A stretch of DNA of 64,000 nt from Verrucomicrobiota bacterium (GTDB taxonomy: Bacteria; Verrucomicrobiota; Verrucomicrobiia; Opitutales; UBA953). The stretch is taken from the NCBI GenBank assembly GCA_014193315.1, contig BJHS01000001.1, forward strand, positions 206,628 to 270,627, in the 5' to 3' direction. The notes beneath the pieces are model-generated. The model was not told the origin of the DNA and did not search any database. It saw only the letters and a list, made by a program, of their open reading frames with translations. A program made the translations under genes and the position numbers. Below, piece by piece: positions 41,420 to 49,336 of the stretch. Positions within the stretch are counted from its first letter, which is position 1. Every line of letters begins with the position of its first letter.

Positions 41420-42697
41420 TCAGGCCAGGCGCTTGAGCACCGCGGACCAGCCGAAGTTCGCCATGTCGGCGAAGAGGAATTGCACCCCAACCGTCCGACC
41501 GTCGGGGCGCTTGGCGGGGGCCGCAATCGCGGGTAGTCCAGCCAGCGAGCCCGGGGCGTTGAGCGCCAACAGGCGGGCGCGGTGCACCTCGTCGCAGGCG
41601 GCCTTACCGACGGCCGGGCCGGCGGTGGCGGGCAGGGCGATGAAGTGATGCCGGGTGAAGAGCACGCGAAACGCTTCGCTCACCCGTTGTCGGACGGACT
41701 CGGCCGCCTTCAGCTCCGCGGGCGTCCGGCGACGGCCGGCGTCGAGCCGGGCCCACACCGCTGGGTCGTAGTCCGCGCGACGTTGGTCCAGCCAGGCGGC
41801 GTGAACCCGTGCGGCGGCGTAACCGCCCAGCACCGGGTAAGCGGCCGCCGCGCCTTGGCATGCCAGCCGCAGGAGTTCGGTCGAGGCGAGGTTCTCTTGG
41901 GCCCCCGCGCGTAAGGCGAGTTCGCGCATGGGTGCGAGGTCCGCCGGCACGAGTCCCAGCCCGAGGTCGCCCGCCCACAGGCCAGCGCCCGCCGGAGGGG
42001 CTTCGCCCAGCACCGCGGCCGAGACCTGCGCGAGGTCTTGGGCGCTCCCTGCGATCCAGCCGGGGGTGTCGTAGCCCGGGGAAAGCGGGAAAAGATCGCC
42101 GACCGGCAGGATGTCGGGCGAGAGGCGCAGGCCCCAGACGCCGCAATACCCGCAAGGGACGCGAATCGAGCCGGCGGTGTCGGTCGCCAAAGCGAACGGG
42201 ACCAACCCACGCGCGACCGCGAAGGCGGCGCCGGAGGAAGAGCCGCCGGCGAGTATGGCGCCGTCGATCGGGTGCGGGCAGTCGCCGTAGTGCGGGTTCT
42301 CTCCGGTCAGCCCGAAGGCGAATTCGTTCAGCTGGGTCCGGCCGCATTCGATGGCTCCCGCATCCTGTTCGAAGGCCGCGGGCAGGGTGGAGGTACGCCG
42401 GGCCGGCCCGAGCACTTCCGGCAGGAACGTCGACCCCGCGAACGTCGGGTGGCCGGTCCGGAAATACAGGTCCTTGGTCAGGAAGGGCACGCCGCCCAGC
42501 GCCGCGTCGCGTCGCGGCCAGGCGTTCTCAAAGCGACGGGTCAGGCTGACGGCATCGGGCAGGCCGCAGAGCGCCGCCCGCTGTTCGGCGGGGGCGAGCG
42601 CCCCGAGCTTGAGGAGGAAAGCCTCCGCCGCCATGCGCGGACCCCGGGTCAGGGTGAACTCGCGCCAATCTTCGATCGAGCGCGGTCCGTCGTTCAC
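41420..42697 (-). CDS. Amidase-signature family hydrolase
   Basis: A 425-residue amidase-signature protein. The Ser-cisSer-Lys triad can be read from VPFLTKDLYFRTG (Lys), ILAGGSSSGAAFAVARG (cis-Ser) and ATDTAGSIRVPCGYCGVWGL (nucleophile Ser in DTAGSIR). Proteins of this type include allophanate hydrolase, AtzF-like and general amidases, and GatA is a relative; it is shorter than GatA and has no gatB/C neighbour. The GTG start at 42697 overlaps the upstream nuclease-like gene's stop as GTGA. The substrate is unknown. Confidence 0.82.
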   Translation of the reverse strand: MNDGPRSIEDWREFTLTRGPRMAAEAFLLKLGALAPAEQRAALCGLPDAVSLTRRFENAWPRRDAALGGVPFLTKDLYFRTGHPTFAGSTFLPEVLGPARRTSTLPAAFEQDAGAIECGRTQLNEFAFGLTGENPHYGDCPHPIDGAILAGGSSSGAAFAVARGLVPFALATDTAGSIRVPCGYCGVWGLRLSPDILPVGDLFPLSPGYDTPGWIAGSAQDLAQVSAAVLGEAPPAGAGLWAGDLGLGLVPADLAPMRELALRAGAQENLASTELLRLACQGAAAAYPVLGGYAAARVHAAWLDQRRADYDPAVWARLDAGRRRTPAELKAAESVRQRVSEAFRVLFTRHHFIALPATAGPAVGKAACDEVHRARLLALNAPGSLAGLPAIAAPAKRPDGRTVGVQFLFADMANFGWSAVLKRLA

Positions 42698-44052
42698 AGT
42701 TCGAGCGGGGTGCCCGGTTCCGGGTCGTGGACGCGCGTGCCCGGCATCCGCTGGGCCAGCGTCTCCTTCATCCAGGCGCGGGCGGGCGGGTCGCCATGCG
42801 TGAGCACGATGTCCTTCGGCGCGAGGTCGCGGGCGAAGTCCAGCAGCTCCTCGCGGTCGGCGTGGCCGCTCAGGTGGAAGCGCTCGACCTCGGCCCGCAG
42901 GATGGAGGTGTGGTCGAGGCTCTTGAACTTGAATTCGCCGCCGGGCGCCATGCCGATCAATTCGCCACCGGGAGTTTCCGGGTCGCAATAGCCCACGAAG
43001 AACACCGCGTTCTCGGCGTCGTCAAGGATGTTGGCCGCGATGCGCCAAGCCGGGGTTTTCTCCACTAGCATGCCGCTCGAAAGCACGTAGATACCCTGCG
43101 CCGGCAGGTTCTTGCCCGGTTGCACGTAGCGACGGGAAAGCGGCTGGACGCCGAGGTCGCGCAGGATCTGCCGACTGAACTTCACCTGCTTGGTCTTCTT
43201 GCTCGCCGCATCCATGTAGTCGCAGAGGTCCATCCCGAGGCCCGAGCAGAAGATGGGGACGTCGACCAGTTCGCCCTCGTCGGCCGCGTCCTGCAGGAGC
43301 ATCAGGATCTCCTGCATACGGCCGAAGGCGAAGGCCGGGAGGAGCACGTCACCGCCCCGGTCCGCGACGCGGTTGATCGCGTTGATGAGGCGATCTTCTT
43401 CCTTCTTGCGCGTCATCCCGGGGGCCGTAGCGGTGGCCCCGCGAGTGCATTCCATCACCAAGGTGTCGACCGGGGTGCTGGGGAAGTTGGCGCCAGCCAC
43501 CGTCCGTTGGGCTTGGAAATGCACGTCGCCCGTGAAGAAGTGCTTACGTTTACGGTGTTCCACCAGCACGCCGACCGCGCCGGCGACATGGCCCGCGAGG
43601 TGGAAACTCAGCGCGACCTCCTCGCCGCCGCGACCGATGATGCGGGGGTTGGCGAGCGGGACGGCCGCGAGGGCATGCTCGACGCGTTCGACGTCCTGCT
43701 CGACGTAGAGCGGGTAATCCGCGTTGCCGGTCTCCTCGCGCTGGCGCTTCATGACCTGGATCGAGTTGGAGAGCAGCCGGCGGACGAAGAGGGTGGTGGC
43801 CGCCGAGGCGTAGACCCGCGCCCCAGGGTGCTGGCGGATCAGCAAGGGCAGCGAGCCCAGGTGGTCCAGGTGGCAATGCGTGAGGATGACGCCGTCGACG
43901 CCGCCTTGGATCTTATCCAGTTGCGGCAAGGCCTTGCGCCCATCGAGTTTGGGGTGAAGGCCGCAGTCGAGGACCAGCCGCAGGCCGCCGAACTCGGCGA
44001 GCATGCAGTTGGCGCCGATTTCGCGGCCGGAGTTGAGGTCGGTAAGTCGCAT
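42694..44052 (-). CDS. Beta-CASP metallo-beta-lactamase-fold RNase-like protein
   Basis: A 452-residue protein of the MBL/beta-CASP nuclease family (RNA 3'-processing, CPSF-73-like/YsH1-type). Motif 1 is DCGLHPK, motif 2 is LTHCHLDHLGSLPLL (HxHxDH), motif 3 is FHLAGHVAGAVGVLV, and motif 4 is FFTGDVHFQA. The beta-CASP domain holds VMECTRGAT and LPAFAFGRMQEILMLL, and later FHLSGHADREELLDF and LTHGDP. It probably acts in RNA or DNA cleavage in the cytosol. Its ATG overlaps the apaG stop by one base (TGATG), which suggests coupling. Confidence 0.88.
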   Translation of the reverse strand: MRLTDLNSGREIGANCMLAEFGGLRLVLDCGLHPKLDGRKALPQLDKIQGGVDGVILTHCHLDHLGSLPLLIRQHPGARVYASAATTLFVRRLLSNSIQVMKRQREETGNADYPLYVEQDVERVEHALAAVPLANPRIIGRGGEEVALSFHLAGHVAGAVGVLVEHRKRKHFFTGDVHFQAQRTVAGANFPSTPVDTLVMECTRGATATAPGMTRKKEEDRLINAINRVADRGGDVLLPAFAFGRMQEILMLLQDAADEGELVDVPIFCSGLGMDLCDYMDAASKKTKQVKFSRQILRDLGVQPLSRRYVQPGKNLPAQGIYVLSSGMLVEKTPAWRIAANILDDAENAVFFVGYCDPETPGGELIGMAPGGEFKFKSLDHTSILRAEVERFHLSGHADREELLDFARDLAPKDIVLTHGDPPARAWMKETLAQRMPGTRVHDPEPGTPLEL

Positions 44053-44441
44053 CAGGAAGGGTCGGTGGGCGGGGTCATTGGGAAGGCCGGAATACGCACG
44101 AAAACCCGGCGGCCATCGGCCGTGGTCCCGTGGAAGGCGCCCTCCGCCGTGAGGGGGGCCCCGGTCAGGTGATAACTGTTGTAGGAAAATTTTCCGCCCG
44201 GGGGGAGGGTCGGGGTCTCGCCGACGATCCCGTCGCCCTCGACGACCTCGACCGTGCCATCCTCGCCCCGGAGGACCCACTTTCGGCCGAGGAGACGCAC
44301 GGTCTCCTGGGAGACGTTAGTAATCGTCAGGAAATAGACGAAGGCGTGAGGGGTCTCCGGGGGGAAGTTGGCGTCCCGATGGTGGACCACCTTGTCGATG
44401 ACGACCCGGAGGCCTGGAAGTTCCTGTCCGGTGGCTTGCAC
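44052..44441 (-). CDS. apaG: ApaG domain protein
   Basis: A 129-residue protein with the ApaG immunoglobulin-like fold: LRVVIDKVVHHRDANFPPET, AFVYFLTITNVSQETVRLLG, the RKWVLRGEDGTVEVVEGDGI segment, VGETPTLPPGGKFSYNSYH and EGAFHGTTADG. ApaG was associated with Co/Mg resistance in enterobacteria; its function is unsettled. The GTG at 44441 gives VQATGQELPG, near the family N-terminus; no better start was seen. It is first in a unit with the MBL nuclease and amidase genes, and divergent from the large fusion gene. Confidence 0.85.
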   Translation of the reverse strand: MQATGQELPGLRVVIDKVVHHRDANFPPETPHAFVYFLTITNVSQETVRLLGRKWVLRGEDGTVEVVEGDGIVGETPTLPPGGKFSYNSYHLTGAPLTAEGAFHGTTADGRRVFVRIPAFPMTPPTDPS

Positions 44442-44552: not shown

Positions 44553-47204
44553 ATGACGATGGTGCCTCACCCCTCCCGCAAGAGCATGCTCGGTCGCATC
44601 CCCGGCAAGTGGAAGGCCATTTTTGTCTACCTGGTGCTGCTGGTCCTTTCTGCCCGGTTCCCCACCTTCAGCGCCAACGAAAGGATCGCGCCCGGCACGC
44701 CCGTCGGGGTGCCGGCTTTCGACTTCATCGGGGACAAAGTGGTCCGGACGGATCGCACCATCCCGATCCGGGCTCACTTGCACGGGGTCGACGGCCAGAA
44801 GGAGGAGGCGCAGGTCGAGGTCCGCCCCCGTTTCCGCAAGACCGTCGTGGTCTACCTCCATCGCATCCCGTGGGACGACCAAGGGAGCCGGCTTTGCGTG
44901 GCGCTGGCGAAGCACCCGGAGGTTTCCGTCATCGAGGCCTTCCTGCCCGGGTTCCACACCTCCTCCGGCGACGTGCCCAGCCATTCGATGGAGTCCAACG
45001 CCGAGGTGGTCGCGGCCCTCGTCGAACACTATGGCCTGAAGGAGTATCATGTCATCGGCCAGGGTCTCGGTGGCGTCGCCGCGCTGGAGCTCGCCAAGGC
45101 CCATCCCGACCGTGTCCGTTCCCTTTCCTTGGTGTCCTCGCCGGGGGCGCAGGAGTTCGAGATGATGGGCAATCCCCTCGTCAATAAGTTAGTCTACGGT
45201 TTCCATGGGGCCTTTTTCTGGGGCGTCTCCCGCCTCACCCCAAATTTCGGGGCGGCCGACCTGCTCCCCTGGGATCGCGATTACGCCAAGACGGTCTTCG
45301 ACACGGACCTCACGGACTCCAAAGAAATCCTGAAGGCCTGGCGCAAGCCTTTGTACCTGCTACACGGCGCGGACGATTGGGTGACGTCCATCGACGCCGC
45401 CCGCTACTCGGCCAAGTTGGTCCCGCAGGCGCAGCTGGAGGTTTTGCCGGGAGGACGCGACGCGGCTTTCGATGACGTCGAAGCGACGGCCGCCAAATTG
45501 AGCGGCTTCGTTCTCAAGGTGGAGCAGGCGCCGCCGGCGCTCGCGCCGCTGCCGACGGCCAAGGACCCGGCCGTGCCGACCGCGCAAGGCGCCCGGTATT
45601 GGATTCTGATGGTTATCATCGTCGTGTGCTGCCTTGTCGCCGAGGATCCCACCTGCCTGGCGACGGGCCTGCTCGTGGGGATGGGGGTCATCGATTTTTG
45701 GTCCGGGGTCGCCGCCTGCACGGTCAGCATCTTCATCGGGGACGTCGCCTTGTATTCCGTGGGTCGATTCTTTGGTCGACAGGCCCTGCACCGTATCCCG
45801 TTGAAGTGGCTCATCAAGCCGCACCAACTCGAGCAATGGGCCGGCTGGTTCTCGACGCCGCGCGGGATGCTCGTCGTCGTCAGTTCCCGCTTCGTGCCGG
45901 CCAGCCGCGTCCCGACCTTCATCACCGCGGGTATCCTCCGTCTCCGGCCCCTTCGGTTGGGCGTGCTGCTCTTCGTCGCCGCGCTCGTCTGGACCCCCGT
46001 CCTGATGCTCATCGGTCTGCGCTGGGGCCCGGCCATCATCGAGAAGCTCAACGAATACCACCGCCTCGCAGGCTGGATCGTCGTGGGCATGTTGGTGCTG
46101 CTTTACCTCGCGACGCACTGGATCCTGCCCGCGCTCACGTGGCGGGGTCGGCGGCAGTTGGTCATGAAGGTGCGCGGTTTGTTGCAGCCTTCGCTTTGGC
46201 CGGCGACGCTCCTCTACCTTCCGGTCCGTCTCGGCGTGCTTTTCTTCAGTTTGCGCCACCGGAGTCTCACCGCGTTCGCCTCCGCGAACCCGGCCTTTGG
46301 TCGCATCGGCGGTTTTGTCGGCGACGCGAAGTCGCTCCTGCTCCGCCCCTTTCAGCGCGATTCGCGCTGCTGCCCGACCTTGGCGCTGTCGCAGGAGGAC
46401 GCCATCGAGGAACGGCTCAAGGAAGCCACCGCCTTTGCCGTCTGTCATGGTTACCCGCTGGTCTTCAAGCCGGAAGTCGCCGAGGATGGCGCTGGCCTGC
46501 GCTTCGTGCGCGGCCCTGAGCAGCTCGCGGCAAGGGTGCGCGCGGCGCGCGAAGATTTCCTTTTGCAGAAGTTCATCCCCGGGCTGGAGTTCGAGGTGGT
46601 GTGGCGGCGTAATCCCGGGCAGGACGATGGCCGCATCATGGCGATTGTGCAGAAGCAGGACGTGGTCGTGCGCGGCGATGGCGAGCAGACCTTGGAGGAG
46701 CTAATCTGGCTGGATGAGGTCGCCGTCTCCCGTGGGGAACTTTACCTGCGTTGCCACTCGCGTGAATTGAACGAGGTCATCCCCGCGGGGCGATTGGTCA
46801 CACTCAATCTGACGGGGAGTTACGGCCACGGGGCGCGCTGCATCCACCGCCCTGATCTCACCACGCCCGAACTGGTCGCGGCGGTCTCGGCCTTCGCCAA
46901 GCGCTTCCCCGGCTTGCACTTCGGTCGTTTCGACCTGCGTGCGGCGAGCGAGGATGAATTGAAGGCCGGTCGCTTCGTCTGCACCGAGGTCGGGGGCTGT
47001 TGCCACGTGTCCAGCCTGATGCGGGATGAGGCGCTGCGCTTCAGTCGTTCCTACACGGCGGTCTGGCATCAATTGAAGGCCTGCCTCGAGGCGGGGCGAT
47101 ATAACCTCAAGCAAAACGTCCGCCCGGTGCCACTGGAGGAACTGATGGCGAGCTGGAGCCAGGCTCGCGGTCGGGCGGACGAGTTTGCCGTCAGCGAGGA
47201 GTAG
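44553..47204 (+). CDS. Fusion: degenerate alpha/beta-hydrolase + DedA membrane domain + ATP-grasp
   Basis: An 883-residue three-part protein. After a membrane anchor (about 20-34), an alpha/beta-hydrolase domain (about 90-325) has the elbow YHVIGQGLGGVAAL. Gly171 replaces the nucleophile serine, and the usual catalytic His segment reads LPGGRDAAFDD. A DedA-type domain (about 350-530) follows, with IGDVALYSVGRFFGRQAL and SSRFVPASRVPTFITAGIL, both DedA signatures. The C-terminal region (about 600-850) is an ATP-grasp domain: YPLVFKPEVAEDGAGLRFV, DFLLQKFIPGLEFEVVW and FGRFDLRAASEDEL, then VCTEVGGCC in place of an EVN-type motif. All three domains are in one uninterrupted frame. The substrate is unknown; a membrane lipid or envelope role is inferred from DedA. 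Confidence 0.85.
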   Translation: MTMVPHPSRKSMLGRIPGKWKAIFVYLVLLVLSARFPTFSANERIAPGTPVGVPAFDFIGDKVVRTDRTIPIRAHLHGVDGQKEEAQVEVRPRFRKTVVVYLHRIPWDDQGSRLCVALAKHPEVSVIEAFLPGFHTSSGDVPSHSMESNAEVVAALVEHYGLKEYHVIGQGLGGVAALELAKAHPDRVRSLSLVSSPGAQEFEMMGNPLVNKLVYGFHGAFFWGVSRLTPNFGAADLLPWDRDYAKTVFDTDLTDSKEILKAWRKPLYLLHGADDWVTSIDAARYSAKLVPQAQLEVLPGGRDAAFDDVEATAAKLSGFVLKVEQAPPALAPLPTAKDPAVPTAQGARYWILMVIIVVCCLVAEDPTCLATGLLVGMGVIDFWSGVAACTVSIFIGDVALYSVGRFFGRQALHRIPLKWLIKPHQLEQWAGWFSTPRGMLVVVSSRFVPASRVPTFITAGILRLRPLRLGVLLFVAALVWTPVLMLIGLRWGPAIIEKLNEYHRLAGWIVVGMLVLLYLATHWILPALTWRGRRQLVMKVRGLLQPSLWPATLLYLPVRLGVLFFSLRHRSLTAFASANPAFGRIGGFVGDAKSLLLRPFQRDSRCCPTLALSQEDAIEERLKEATAFAVCHGYPLVFKPEVAEDGAGLRFVRGPEQLAARVRAAREDFLLQKFIPGLEFEVVWRRNPGQDDGRIMAIVQKQDVVVRGDGEQTLEELIWLDEVAVSRGELYLRCHSRELNEVIPAGRLVTLNLTGSYGHGARCIHRPDLTTPELVAAVSAFAKRFPGLHFGRFDLRAASEDELKAGRFVCTEVGGCCHVSSLMRDEALRFSRSYTAVWHQLKACLEAGRYNLKQNVRPVPLEELMASWSQARGRADEFAVSEE

Positions 47205-47404: not shown

Positions 47405-49336
47405 ATGAACGCCCGCTCCCCCCGTCTTCGGTCTGTTCTCGTTGCTGCCGCCCTGATTACCTCCCCTTCGCTTTGGGCCGCTAACGTCATCTGGGACACG
47501 AGTAGTGCCCCCGGCTATCAGCTTGGCAGCGGCACATGGGACTTAGGGAGTCTGCGCTGGACGACCAATGGCACGACCCTGTCGGCTTGGGTCTCCGGTG
47601 ATAGTGCCATTTTTTCCGATGGGACGCAGGGCGCGACGGACGCGATCACCTTAGCGACGAACGTCACAATCAGCGGGCTGACTTTCGGGGGCGGGTCGGT
47701 TGATAGCGCGAATTGGATGATCGCGGGGGCTGGTCAATTTGACTTGGGATCGTCGGCCGAGTTCAAGGTCTTTGGTGGCTCCACCGCTACCTTGAGTAAC
47801 TCGATTGGCGGTAACTTTGGGGTGAATAAGACCGGTTCGGGGATCTTAGTTTTCGATGCCGTTAATACCTATGCTGGAGGGACGACCATCTCGGACGGCC
47901 TGCTGAGGTTGAGGCATGCCCAAGGGGCTGGCACTGGCCCGATTGCACTCAACGGCGGCGTCCTTGGCCTAGACCAGAGCCTCACGATTGGCAATCAGGT
48001 GACCCTGCAGTCGGCGCGGTCGATCATCGATATGGACATGGCCACACCCAATTCGTCGACCCTATCGGGCTTGATTTCTGGTGCTGGAACCTTCGTCAAG
48101 ACGGGTCGCGGCACGCTTGTCCTTACCGCGACGAATAGCTACACTGGTGGGACATCGATCGAGGGTGGGGTTCTGAAGTTAAGCTCCGATGGGGCGGCCG
48201 GTAGCGGGGTCATCACGCTCAATGGTGGATCGCTGCAAGTCTCTTCAACTATCAACGTGCGCAATAACATCATCCTCGCCGCGCCGACCAACGAGATTTC
48301 TATGAATGAGACCTTCCCCAAAGGTTACCCGAGGACCGCGCTGTTATCGGCGGCGATTATTTCCGGTTCCGGCCAATTTCAAAAAGTTGGGGCAGGGAAT
48401 TTCAACATCTACGGGGCTAATACCTATACCGGCGGGACTATCATCAACGCTGGCTGGTTGACGCTTGCTCATAACACTGGGGCGGGGACCGGGGCCATTA
48501 CGGTCAAAGGTGGGGCGCTGTATTTAAAGGATGGCCTTAAGGTCGCGAACGCCATTGTACTGGCGGCCCCTCAGTCAAGGCTGGGGGCCGAATTGGGGAG
48601 TACCGCGACTTTGTCGGGGGTGATCTCCGGGACCGGGGCACTGCATAAGGAGGGCGACGCAACGTTGATACTAACCGGGGCGAACACCTTCACGGGTGGG
48701 CTATCCGTCAAGGCCGGTAATCTCTTGATTAATGGCAGTGTCGATGGTGCCGCAAAGGTGCTCTCGGGGGCGAGCCTGGGTGGCTCCGGCGTGGTTGGGA
48801 ACGTCACCGTTACCGCTGGCGGGAAAATCAGCCCGGGTGCGGCGCTCGATAACTCGGTCGCGACTCTGACCTTGGCTAGCCTTAGTCTTGAAGGGGATTC
48901 CATCGTTAACTGGAATGTGGTTCGCGCTGATCAGGCTGCAGGGGTCGGTTACGACTGCATGAAGGTCACTGGGCTCCTCGACCTGAGCGGGGCTTCCTCG
49001 CTCAATCGGGTGAAGTTACTCCTGAGTGGGCGCCTCGCCAACTTCGACCCTCAACAATCGGCCAACTTCAAGTTGCTGGATTACGTCACCCTTAACCTTG
49101 GCACCAACACCAACATCTCCGACCTTTTCTCTATTGATGACACGGGCTTGCTGGATGGATACGGCGCTTGGCAGCAGCTCTTCGCCTTTCGCGTCGTCGA
49201 TGATGCGGCAAACCATCAGCTCCTGCTCAGCTATTCTGGCGCCGTGCCGGAGCCCTCCACCTATGGTTTTGCGCTGGGGGCTTTGGGTCTGGCCATCGCC
49301 GCGGTGCGTCGCCGCCGCCAGCCAGTGTCTGCCTAG
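47405..49336 (+). CDS. PEP-CTERM protein with autotransporter-associated beta-strand repeats
   Basis: A 643-residue secreted protein. It has a signal peptide (about residues 1-26) and an early VIWDTSSAPGYQLGSGTWDL segment. At least four autotransporter-type repeats follow, of the form KTGSGILVFDAVNTYAGGTT, KTGRGTLVLTATNSYTGGTS, KVGAGNFNIYGANTYTGGTI and KEGDATLILTGANTFTGGLS. It ends with the PEP-CTERM sorting signal VPEPSTYGFALGALGLAIAA and a basic tail, RRRRQPVSA. Proteins of this type are released or anchored by exosortase; no exosortase gene is in the window. The gene is visibly richer in A and T than its neighbours. It has a 200-bp upstream spacer in which I see no clear element. Confidence 0.9.
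   Translation: MNARSPRLRSVLVAAALITSPSLWAANVIWDTSSAPGYQLGSGTWDLGSLRWTTNGTTLSAWVSGDSAIFSDGTQGATDAITLATNVTISGLTFGGGSVDSANWMIAGAGQFDLGSSAEFKVFGGSTATLSNSIGGNFGVNKTGSGILVFDAVNTYAGGTTISDGLLRLRHAQGAGTGPIALNGGVLGLDQSLTIGNQVTLQSARSIIDMDMATPNSSTLSGLISGAGTFVKTGRGTLVLTATNSYTGGTSIEGGVLKLSSDGAAGSGVITLNGGSLQVSSTINVRNNIILAAPTNEISMNETFPKGYPRTALLSAAIISGSGQFQKVGAGNFNIYGANTYTGGTIINAGWLTLAHNTGAGTGAITVKGGALYLKDGLKVANAIVLAAPQSRLGAELGSTATLSGVISGTGALHKEGDATLILTGANTFTGGLSVKAGNLLINGSVDGAAKVLSGASLGGSGVVGNVTVTAGGKISPGAALDNSVATLTLASLSLEGDSIVNWNVVRADQAAGVGYDCMKVTGLLDLSGASSLNRVKLLLSGRLANFDPQQSANFKLLDYVTLNLGTNTNISDLFSIDDTGLLDGYGAWQQLFAFRVVDDAANHQLLLSYSGAVPEPSTYGFALGALGLAIAAVRRRRQPVSA

Follow-up and report, generated by a model that had tools for sequence, protein, structure and literature searches.

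The stretch of DNA analyzed in this study (the window) covers 64,000 nucleotides of the assembly of a Verrucomicrobiota bacterium. In this window, a single open frame at 44553-47204 on the forward strand encodes a protein of 883 residues, here called P0001, in which an alpha/beta-hydrolase fold is followed by a DedA/VTT membrane domain and then by an ATP-grasp domain. The Met at 44559 is a possible start; since the invariant Met of the family is aligned to residue 3 of P0001, the true start may be there. The 2.36-Mb assembly holds only one match to P0001 at E <= 0.001. The surrounding genes encode a beta-CASP metallo-beta-lactamase (presumably RNase J-like), sigma-54, a PEP-CTERM protein, and a transketolase, and no operon was seen around P0001 in the window. 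On the minus strand, an amidase frame (41420-42988) and the beta-CASP frame (42694-44280) overlap by 295 bases; the true start of the amidase is probably further in. Just downstream of P0001, on the same strand, the region 47405-49336 contains Passenger-associated-transport repeats and a PEP-CTERM motif.

P0001 is predicted to begin with a membrane anchor at residues 18-35 (44604-44657; all features of P0001 lie on the forward strand), where the structure model has a helix; its N-terminus is basic, with three positive and no negative charges. The alpha/beta-hydrolase fold spans residues 48-327 (44694-45533) and is predicted to lie outside the cytoplasm, the DedA/VTT domain spans residues 345-535 (45585-46157) and is helical in the model, and the ATP-grasp domain spans residues 601-860 (46353-47132) and is predicted to be cytoplasmic. 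In Pfam, Abhydrolase_1 (1.3e-14) and VTT_dom (PF09335, 1.7e-11; 45.1 bits, cut-off 33.9) both exceeded their cut-offs. The ATP-grasp domain is weak when searched as a single sequence (Pfam CPSase_L_D2, 0.0014, below cut-off; cyanophycin synthetase model, 1.2e-4, far under cut-off). It aligns over its full length with six related ATP-grasp proteins, with 26% identity to the first, and when these seven sequences were combined into one profile, its matches included 7ta5 (3.4e-12), whose chain is named glutathione synthase, and, at 6.4e-10, cyanophycin synthases. The matches listed in a fold search with the P0001 model all fall on the hydrolase part, and the MprF synthase and flippase domains were absent among the six Pfam families found for P0001 at E <= 1. 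A preliminary description of this DNA had proposed a three-domain fusion, which is borne out by the 883-residue open frame, the Pfam and profile matches, and 114 co-linear proteins; the motifs that it had pointed out (GQGLG with Gly171, GGRD with Arg302, and EVGGCC) are all read in the sequence as claimed. An assembly join or frameshift was ruled out by the identical layout in 114 full-length proteins of 780-960 aa.

The module occurs in several phyla, including the Verrucomicrobiota, where the same description had advised looking for this domain order, and the 114 full-layout proteins are P0001 and its nearest relatives. Its claim that no protein of this order has been described stood in part: no paper on a hydrolase-DedA-ATP-grasp protein or on a DedA-ATP-grasp-Ols gene cluster was found in a search of mainly open-access literature, but the order itself is widespread in databases. 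DedA and abhydrolase terms occur together in the accessible part of PMC6355987, but there they concern a phosphatase screening and belong to different proteins. Matches to P0001 were present in 44 of 57 related genomes (its own counted), some of them to a single domain only. A profile search of the phylum gave matches in 43 of 387 genomes; five of these had DedA only and were dropped (G094, G105, G253, G261, and G311), seven belong to the window's family, and 31 module-bearing genomes remain. P0121, a relative with intact-looking sites (structure model pLDDT 87.9), matched 3133 protein clusters at E <= 0.001. The best 120 of these 3133 all carry VTT and alpha/beta-hydrolase Pfam domains; the source names among them include Kiritimatiellia, Acidobacteriota/Blastocatellia, and Gemmatimonadota, and the database names, where given, are 'alpha/beta fold hydrolase' and 'pimeloyl-ACP methyl ester carboxylesterase/membrane protein DedA'.

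Shorter forms also exist, as DedA-ATP-grasp frames of about 545-630 aa or as ATP-grasp alone. Three neighboring genes encode the ATP-grasp, alpha/beta hydrolase, and VTT domains separately in Paracoccus denitrificans PD1222 and Paracoccus sp. MA, with VTT on the opposite strand (L102:8896-11587 on the P. denitrificans plasmid); the PD1222 hydrolase has the elbow GYSYGG and matches Pfam PF00561 at 2.7e-20. Azospirillum lipoferum has a VTT-ATP-grasp protein without the recurrent aminolipid-type partners described below, and plasmids of Komagataeibacter carry ATP-grasp without these partners, in one case with a lysophospholipid acyltransferase some kilobases off.

Active-site residues were counted in a combined set of 233 proteins. 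The window's group comprises 114 proteins of 780-960 aa, P0001 included, drawn from the best 120 of 166; the relatives from elsewhere are 119 proteins from the best 120 of the 3133 P0121 matches (7995 candidates scored) and, being those nearest P0121, are a non-random sample of the family. Proteins shorter than 780 aa were excluded (6 of 120 and 1 of 120, respectively). At the nucleophile elbow, Ser is found in 115 of the 119 relatives from elsewhere; P0001 has Gly171 (45063-45065), as do all 114 proteins of the window's group, which rules out a chance loss in a single genome. In the structure model, strand 165-170 ends just before Gly171 and helix 172-183 begins just after it, which is the expected place of a nucleophile elbow. 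The HGSP segment ahead of this residue is mostly R-[LIV]-P in the window's group. All 119 relatives from elsewhere have the catalytic His, where P0001 has Arg302 (45456-45458) and its group has 70 Arg and 44 His; Asp275 is present in 119/119 and 106/114, respectively. The suggestion of a hydrolase fold without its nucleophile was thus upheld by the invariant Gly and by its position in the model, where the preliminary description had proposed to check it.

In the ATP-grasp domain, the E-x-N metal motif is kept in 116 of the 119 relatives from elsewhere (Glu812 in 116, Asn814 in 116). P0001 has Glu812-Val-Gly814 instead (46986-46994), so that of its metal ligands, D794 and E812 are kept and N814 is replaced by Gly. 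Asn is lost at position 814 in all 114 proteins of the window's group (Gly 104, Glu 8, Asp 1, gap 1), and Glu812 is kept in 112 of them. The group has also replaced R645, R759, and E819, three residues that hardly vary elsewhere (10/119 have Lys for R759). K639, E679, K701, R792, D794, and E812 are retained in 112-114 of the 114, so residual or altered catalysis is possible. The retained Lys, Glu, and Arg residues, with two metal ligands left out of three, would suit a protein in which the hydrolase alone is dead and the ATP-grasp domain goes on ligating, with another substrate and with EVGGCC-H as a new metal site; the EVGG stretch is conserved in most of the group, and the omega of the domain is low (see below). 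We nevertheless regard such a surviving ligase as unlikely: Asn814, R645, R759, and E819 are all replaced, three genomes of the sister genus g22 have lost Glu812 as well as Asn814, and P0110 lacks the entire metal-binding strand. The proteins of these sister genomes (L035, L036, and L037) have longer N-termini, in frames of 944-1072 aa. In the preliminary description, an envelope lipid or peptide was recognized by the hydrolase fold, moved by DedA, and ligated by ATP-grasp. Ligation by P0001 is improbable, as 113 of the 114 proteins have another residue in place of Asn and the last lacks the whole segment, and three near-invariant positions are replaced as well; the recognize-move-ligate scheme suits relatives with intact-looking sites better than P0001.

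The two sites were mostly kept or lost together: both are retained in 115 of the 233 proteins and both are gone in 117, and a single protein has lost Ser alone. The proteins P0135-P0137, outside the window's group, have also lost both, and P0137 was placed apart from that group on a quick tree (80 rows, ATP-grasp motif columns and hydrolase excluded; flagged long branches and no bootstrap), which P0135 and P0136, sharing its state, did not enter. On this tree, at least three changes are counted at the elbow and at least two at Asn814, in the window's family, in the separate P0137 lineage, and in the family f41, which has a Gly elbow and keeps the ATP-grasp motif. The loss of Ser in f41 with an intact ATP-grasp motif indicates that the two site losses are not always coupled. 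A relative split over two frames (L052) has Gly at the elbow (GYGLGG). Purifying selection is strong on each of the three domains in the 17 pairs listed for the window's group: omega ranged over 0.049-0.090 in the hydrolase, 0.024-0.114 in DedA, and 0.020-0.105 in ATP-grasp. Some of these pairs hold the same genome taken twice, and P0001 is in none of them. Omega values of about 0.02-0.11 in both soluble domains and the many invariant columns argue against decay of these domains into remnants without function. Although the lost catalytic residues and the absence of the recurrent neighbors and of NRDE from the window's family would fit such decay, we give it very little credence. In P0001, two pseudoenzymes probably surround a lipid transporter that still works.

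Four motif residues of the DedA domain are invariant in 233 of 233 proteins: an acidic pair in the first re-entrant segment, Glu364-Asp365 (45642-45647), and two Arg six apart, Arg446 and Arg452 (45888-45908). In YghB (COG0586), according to Todor and colleagues (PMC10127716), E39/D51 at the first tip are assigned to proton binding and R130/R136 at the second re-entrant tip to phosphate binding. The Arg spacing is equal in the two proteins (R130/R136 correspond to R446/R452), whereas the acidic residues of YghB are spaced apart and those of P0001 are adjacent, so the DedA class of P0001 is unsure. One could suppose that P0001 mainly recycles undecaprenyl phosphate, as a UptA-type DedA with passengers, since UptA is its best DedA model match (NCBIfam, 2.9e-12, below cut-off) and both phosphate-site Arg are invariant. 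This role appears improbable to us. P0001 scored 47.1 bits against the UptA equivalog NF052604, far under the cut-off of 250, and the gene context in other lineages points to aminolipids. All 14 genomes examined from the window's family encode at least one further DedA protein, so undecaprenyl-phosphate recycling need not rest on P0001, which was accordingly rejected as the sole flippase for this lipid in its genome; a DUF368-family protein was found in none of these 14 genomes.

The gene context was examined by a translated search of 40 stretches (39 and the window; two are second hits of genomes already counted). NRDE/TANGO2 was found in 21, a DinB-like gene in 22, YHS in 7, OlsF/OlsB-like genes in 9, an OlsA-like gene in 4, and a DoxX-like gene in 4, and none of them occurred in the seven stretches of the window's family. 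Among the 31 module-bearing stretches outside that family, 8 lack all seven recurrent neighbors and 22 lack an Ols gene. The TANGO2, YHS (NCBIfam), and acyltransferase labels exceed Pfam or NCBIfam cut-offs, and the DinB and DoxX labels are under theirs. Three OlsF-like neighbors scored 363-404 bits against the ornithine-lipid synthase model (cut-off 620), two OlsB-like neighbors 137 and 139 of 350 bits, and one OlsA-like neighbor 149 of 300; judged by sequence similarity, they are homologs that score under curated cut-offs. In Vibrio sp. THAF64 (L107:6292-12031) and Photobacterium sp. GJ3 (L110:6231-12091), DedA, ATP-grasp, DinB-like, NRDE, YHS, DoxX-like, and OlsF-like genes form a contiguous row. 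Close relatives of the ATP-grasp protein in this row carry the database name 'D-alanine--D-alanine ligase', which is probably wrong. In Variovorax sp. PDNC026, an ATP-grasp frame is directly followed by an OlsB-like frame; the former matches the family only from residue ~290 and has no VTT domain, which makes it ATP-grasp alone. With the Pfam model, NRDE was found in 16 of the 20 genomes searched that carry the module and lie outside the window's family, and in 0 of 14 genomes within it. Acyl-CoA binding by TANGO2 via the NRDE motif is reported in the accessible part of PMC11867700. The available portion of another paper (PMC12186959) states that VCA0646, the OlsF of Vibrio cholerae, makes ornithine lipid, and describes a putative four-gene operon VCA0649-VCA0646, which is not equated here with the Vibrio plasmid row.

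A link to aminolipids was also seen at the genome level. Of the 31 module-bearing genomes outside the window's family, 28 encode a member of PF13444, the acyltransferase family of OlsB and OlsF, versus 171 of 349 module-free genomes (Fisher p 6e-6, with genomes treated as independent of kinship, two draws of 387 genomes taken as the same, and the five DedA-only genomes counted as module-free). In 9 of the 31 genomes, a PF13444 gene and the module are at most ~10 kb apart, versus 0.16 expected for random placement. In the window's family, 4 of 7 genomes have PF13444, and so do 5 of 20 module-free genomes of the same order. Elsewhere in the genome of P0001 lies an OlsF-like gene that scores 390.8 bits, under the cut-off, and an aminolipid is therefore a possible cargo of P0001; the sister genomes G201, G227, and G355 of the window's family have no PF13444 match, which disfavors an aminolipid as the only cargo. 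The envelope-lipid theme of the preliminary description gained support from the aminolipid-synthase neighbors in other lineages. The terms 'DedA' and 'ATP-grasp' are both absent from the main text of a paper on planctomycete ornithine lipids (PMC12493201).

The reading that we favor, with somewhat more confidence than doubt, is that P0001 is a lipid transporter of the DedA type with a former enzyme on each side, both of which now bind or gate lipid. The hydrolase fold outside and the ATP-grasp fold inside, on their predicted sides of the membrane, would bind the lipid or gate its passage and catalyze no reaction. The frequent survival of Asp275 (106/114) and His302 (44/114) counts against this transporter with two pseudoenzymes. 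By analogy with MprF, we infer that the ancestral module was a ligase-flippase-hydrolase for aminolipids. In this ancestor, a lipid containing an amino acid would have received an extra group from ATP-grasp on the inner side of the membrane, DedA would have carried the modified lipid across, and the hydrolase would have removed or edited that group on the outer side; transport may have stayed useful in the window's lineage once the chemistry was dropped. According to the accessible part of an aminolipid review (PMC11631085), an ATP-grasp enzyme activates fatty acids for acyl-histidine, and the use of 3-hydroxy fatty acids is left open there. A second possible ancestral reaction, which would also fit this gene context, is that ATP-grasp made the acyl amide itself.

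More tentatively, a widespread undescribed bacterial machine may build, flip, and trim extended aminolipids without tRNA: a cyanophycin-synthetase-like ATP-grasp would add a second amino acid or an amine to an Ols-made lipid, DedA would carry the product, and the alpha/beta hydrolase would edit it outside, while in the window's lineage the same chassis would have become a transporter controlled by two pseudoenzymes, one per membrane face. If true, this aminolipid machine would provide the genes behind orphan lipids, for example cerilipin, which contains ornithine and taurine according to the available part of PMC6669457; a link of cerilipin to the P0001 family is our conjecture. This large family, for which no published description was found, combines the folds of a ligase, a flippase, and a hydrolase in a single chain. 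It also connects DedA proteins with Ols-type amino-acid lipids, and no such connection was found in the literature searched. Its members near P0001 would serve as natural catalytic knock-outs on both membrane sides, in which the question of transport is separable from that of chemistry.

Among known systems, MprF modifies the headgroups of inner-leaflet lipids and translocates them, as stated in the accessible part of PMC11980842, which also mentions, by citation, fusions of DedA domains to the soluble domains of MprF and lists a periplasmic aminoacyl-PG hydrolase among its references. Judged from that text, MprF resembles the layout of P0001 in combining a cytoplasmic headgroup-adding domain and a lipid-translocating domain in one membrane protein. 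However, MprF uses a tRNA-dependent synthase and its own flippase domain, whereas P0001 has ATP-grasp and DedA, with a hydrolase in the same chain and enzymes that look dead. The DedA/UptA flippases (COG0586) share the VTT domain and the two Arg six apart with P0001, which differs from them in its adjacent acidic residues at the first tip and in its large soluble domains at both ends; rhodanese and PAP2 are named as COG0586 fusions in the available part of PMC10127716. OlsF and OlsB/OlsA are neighbors of the module in other lineages and not homologs of P0001. The ATP-grasp domain of cyanophycin synthetase is among the best solved relatives of that of P0001 and shares E-x-N with the intact-looking relatives. 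The Mur-ligase domain, which is part of cyanophycin synthetase, is absent from P0001, where the Asn is lost and a membrane domain is fused. NDRG and neuroligin are dead alpha/beta-hydrolase folds that have lost the nucleophile and conserved a binding role. P0001 has likewise kept the fold and lost the nucleophile, but it alone is fused to a putative lipid transporter.
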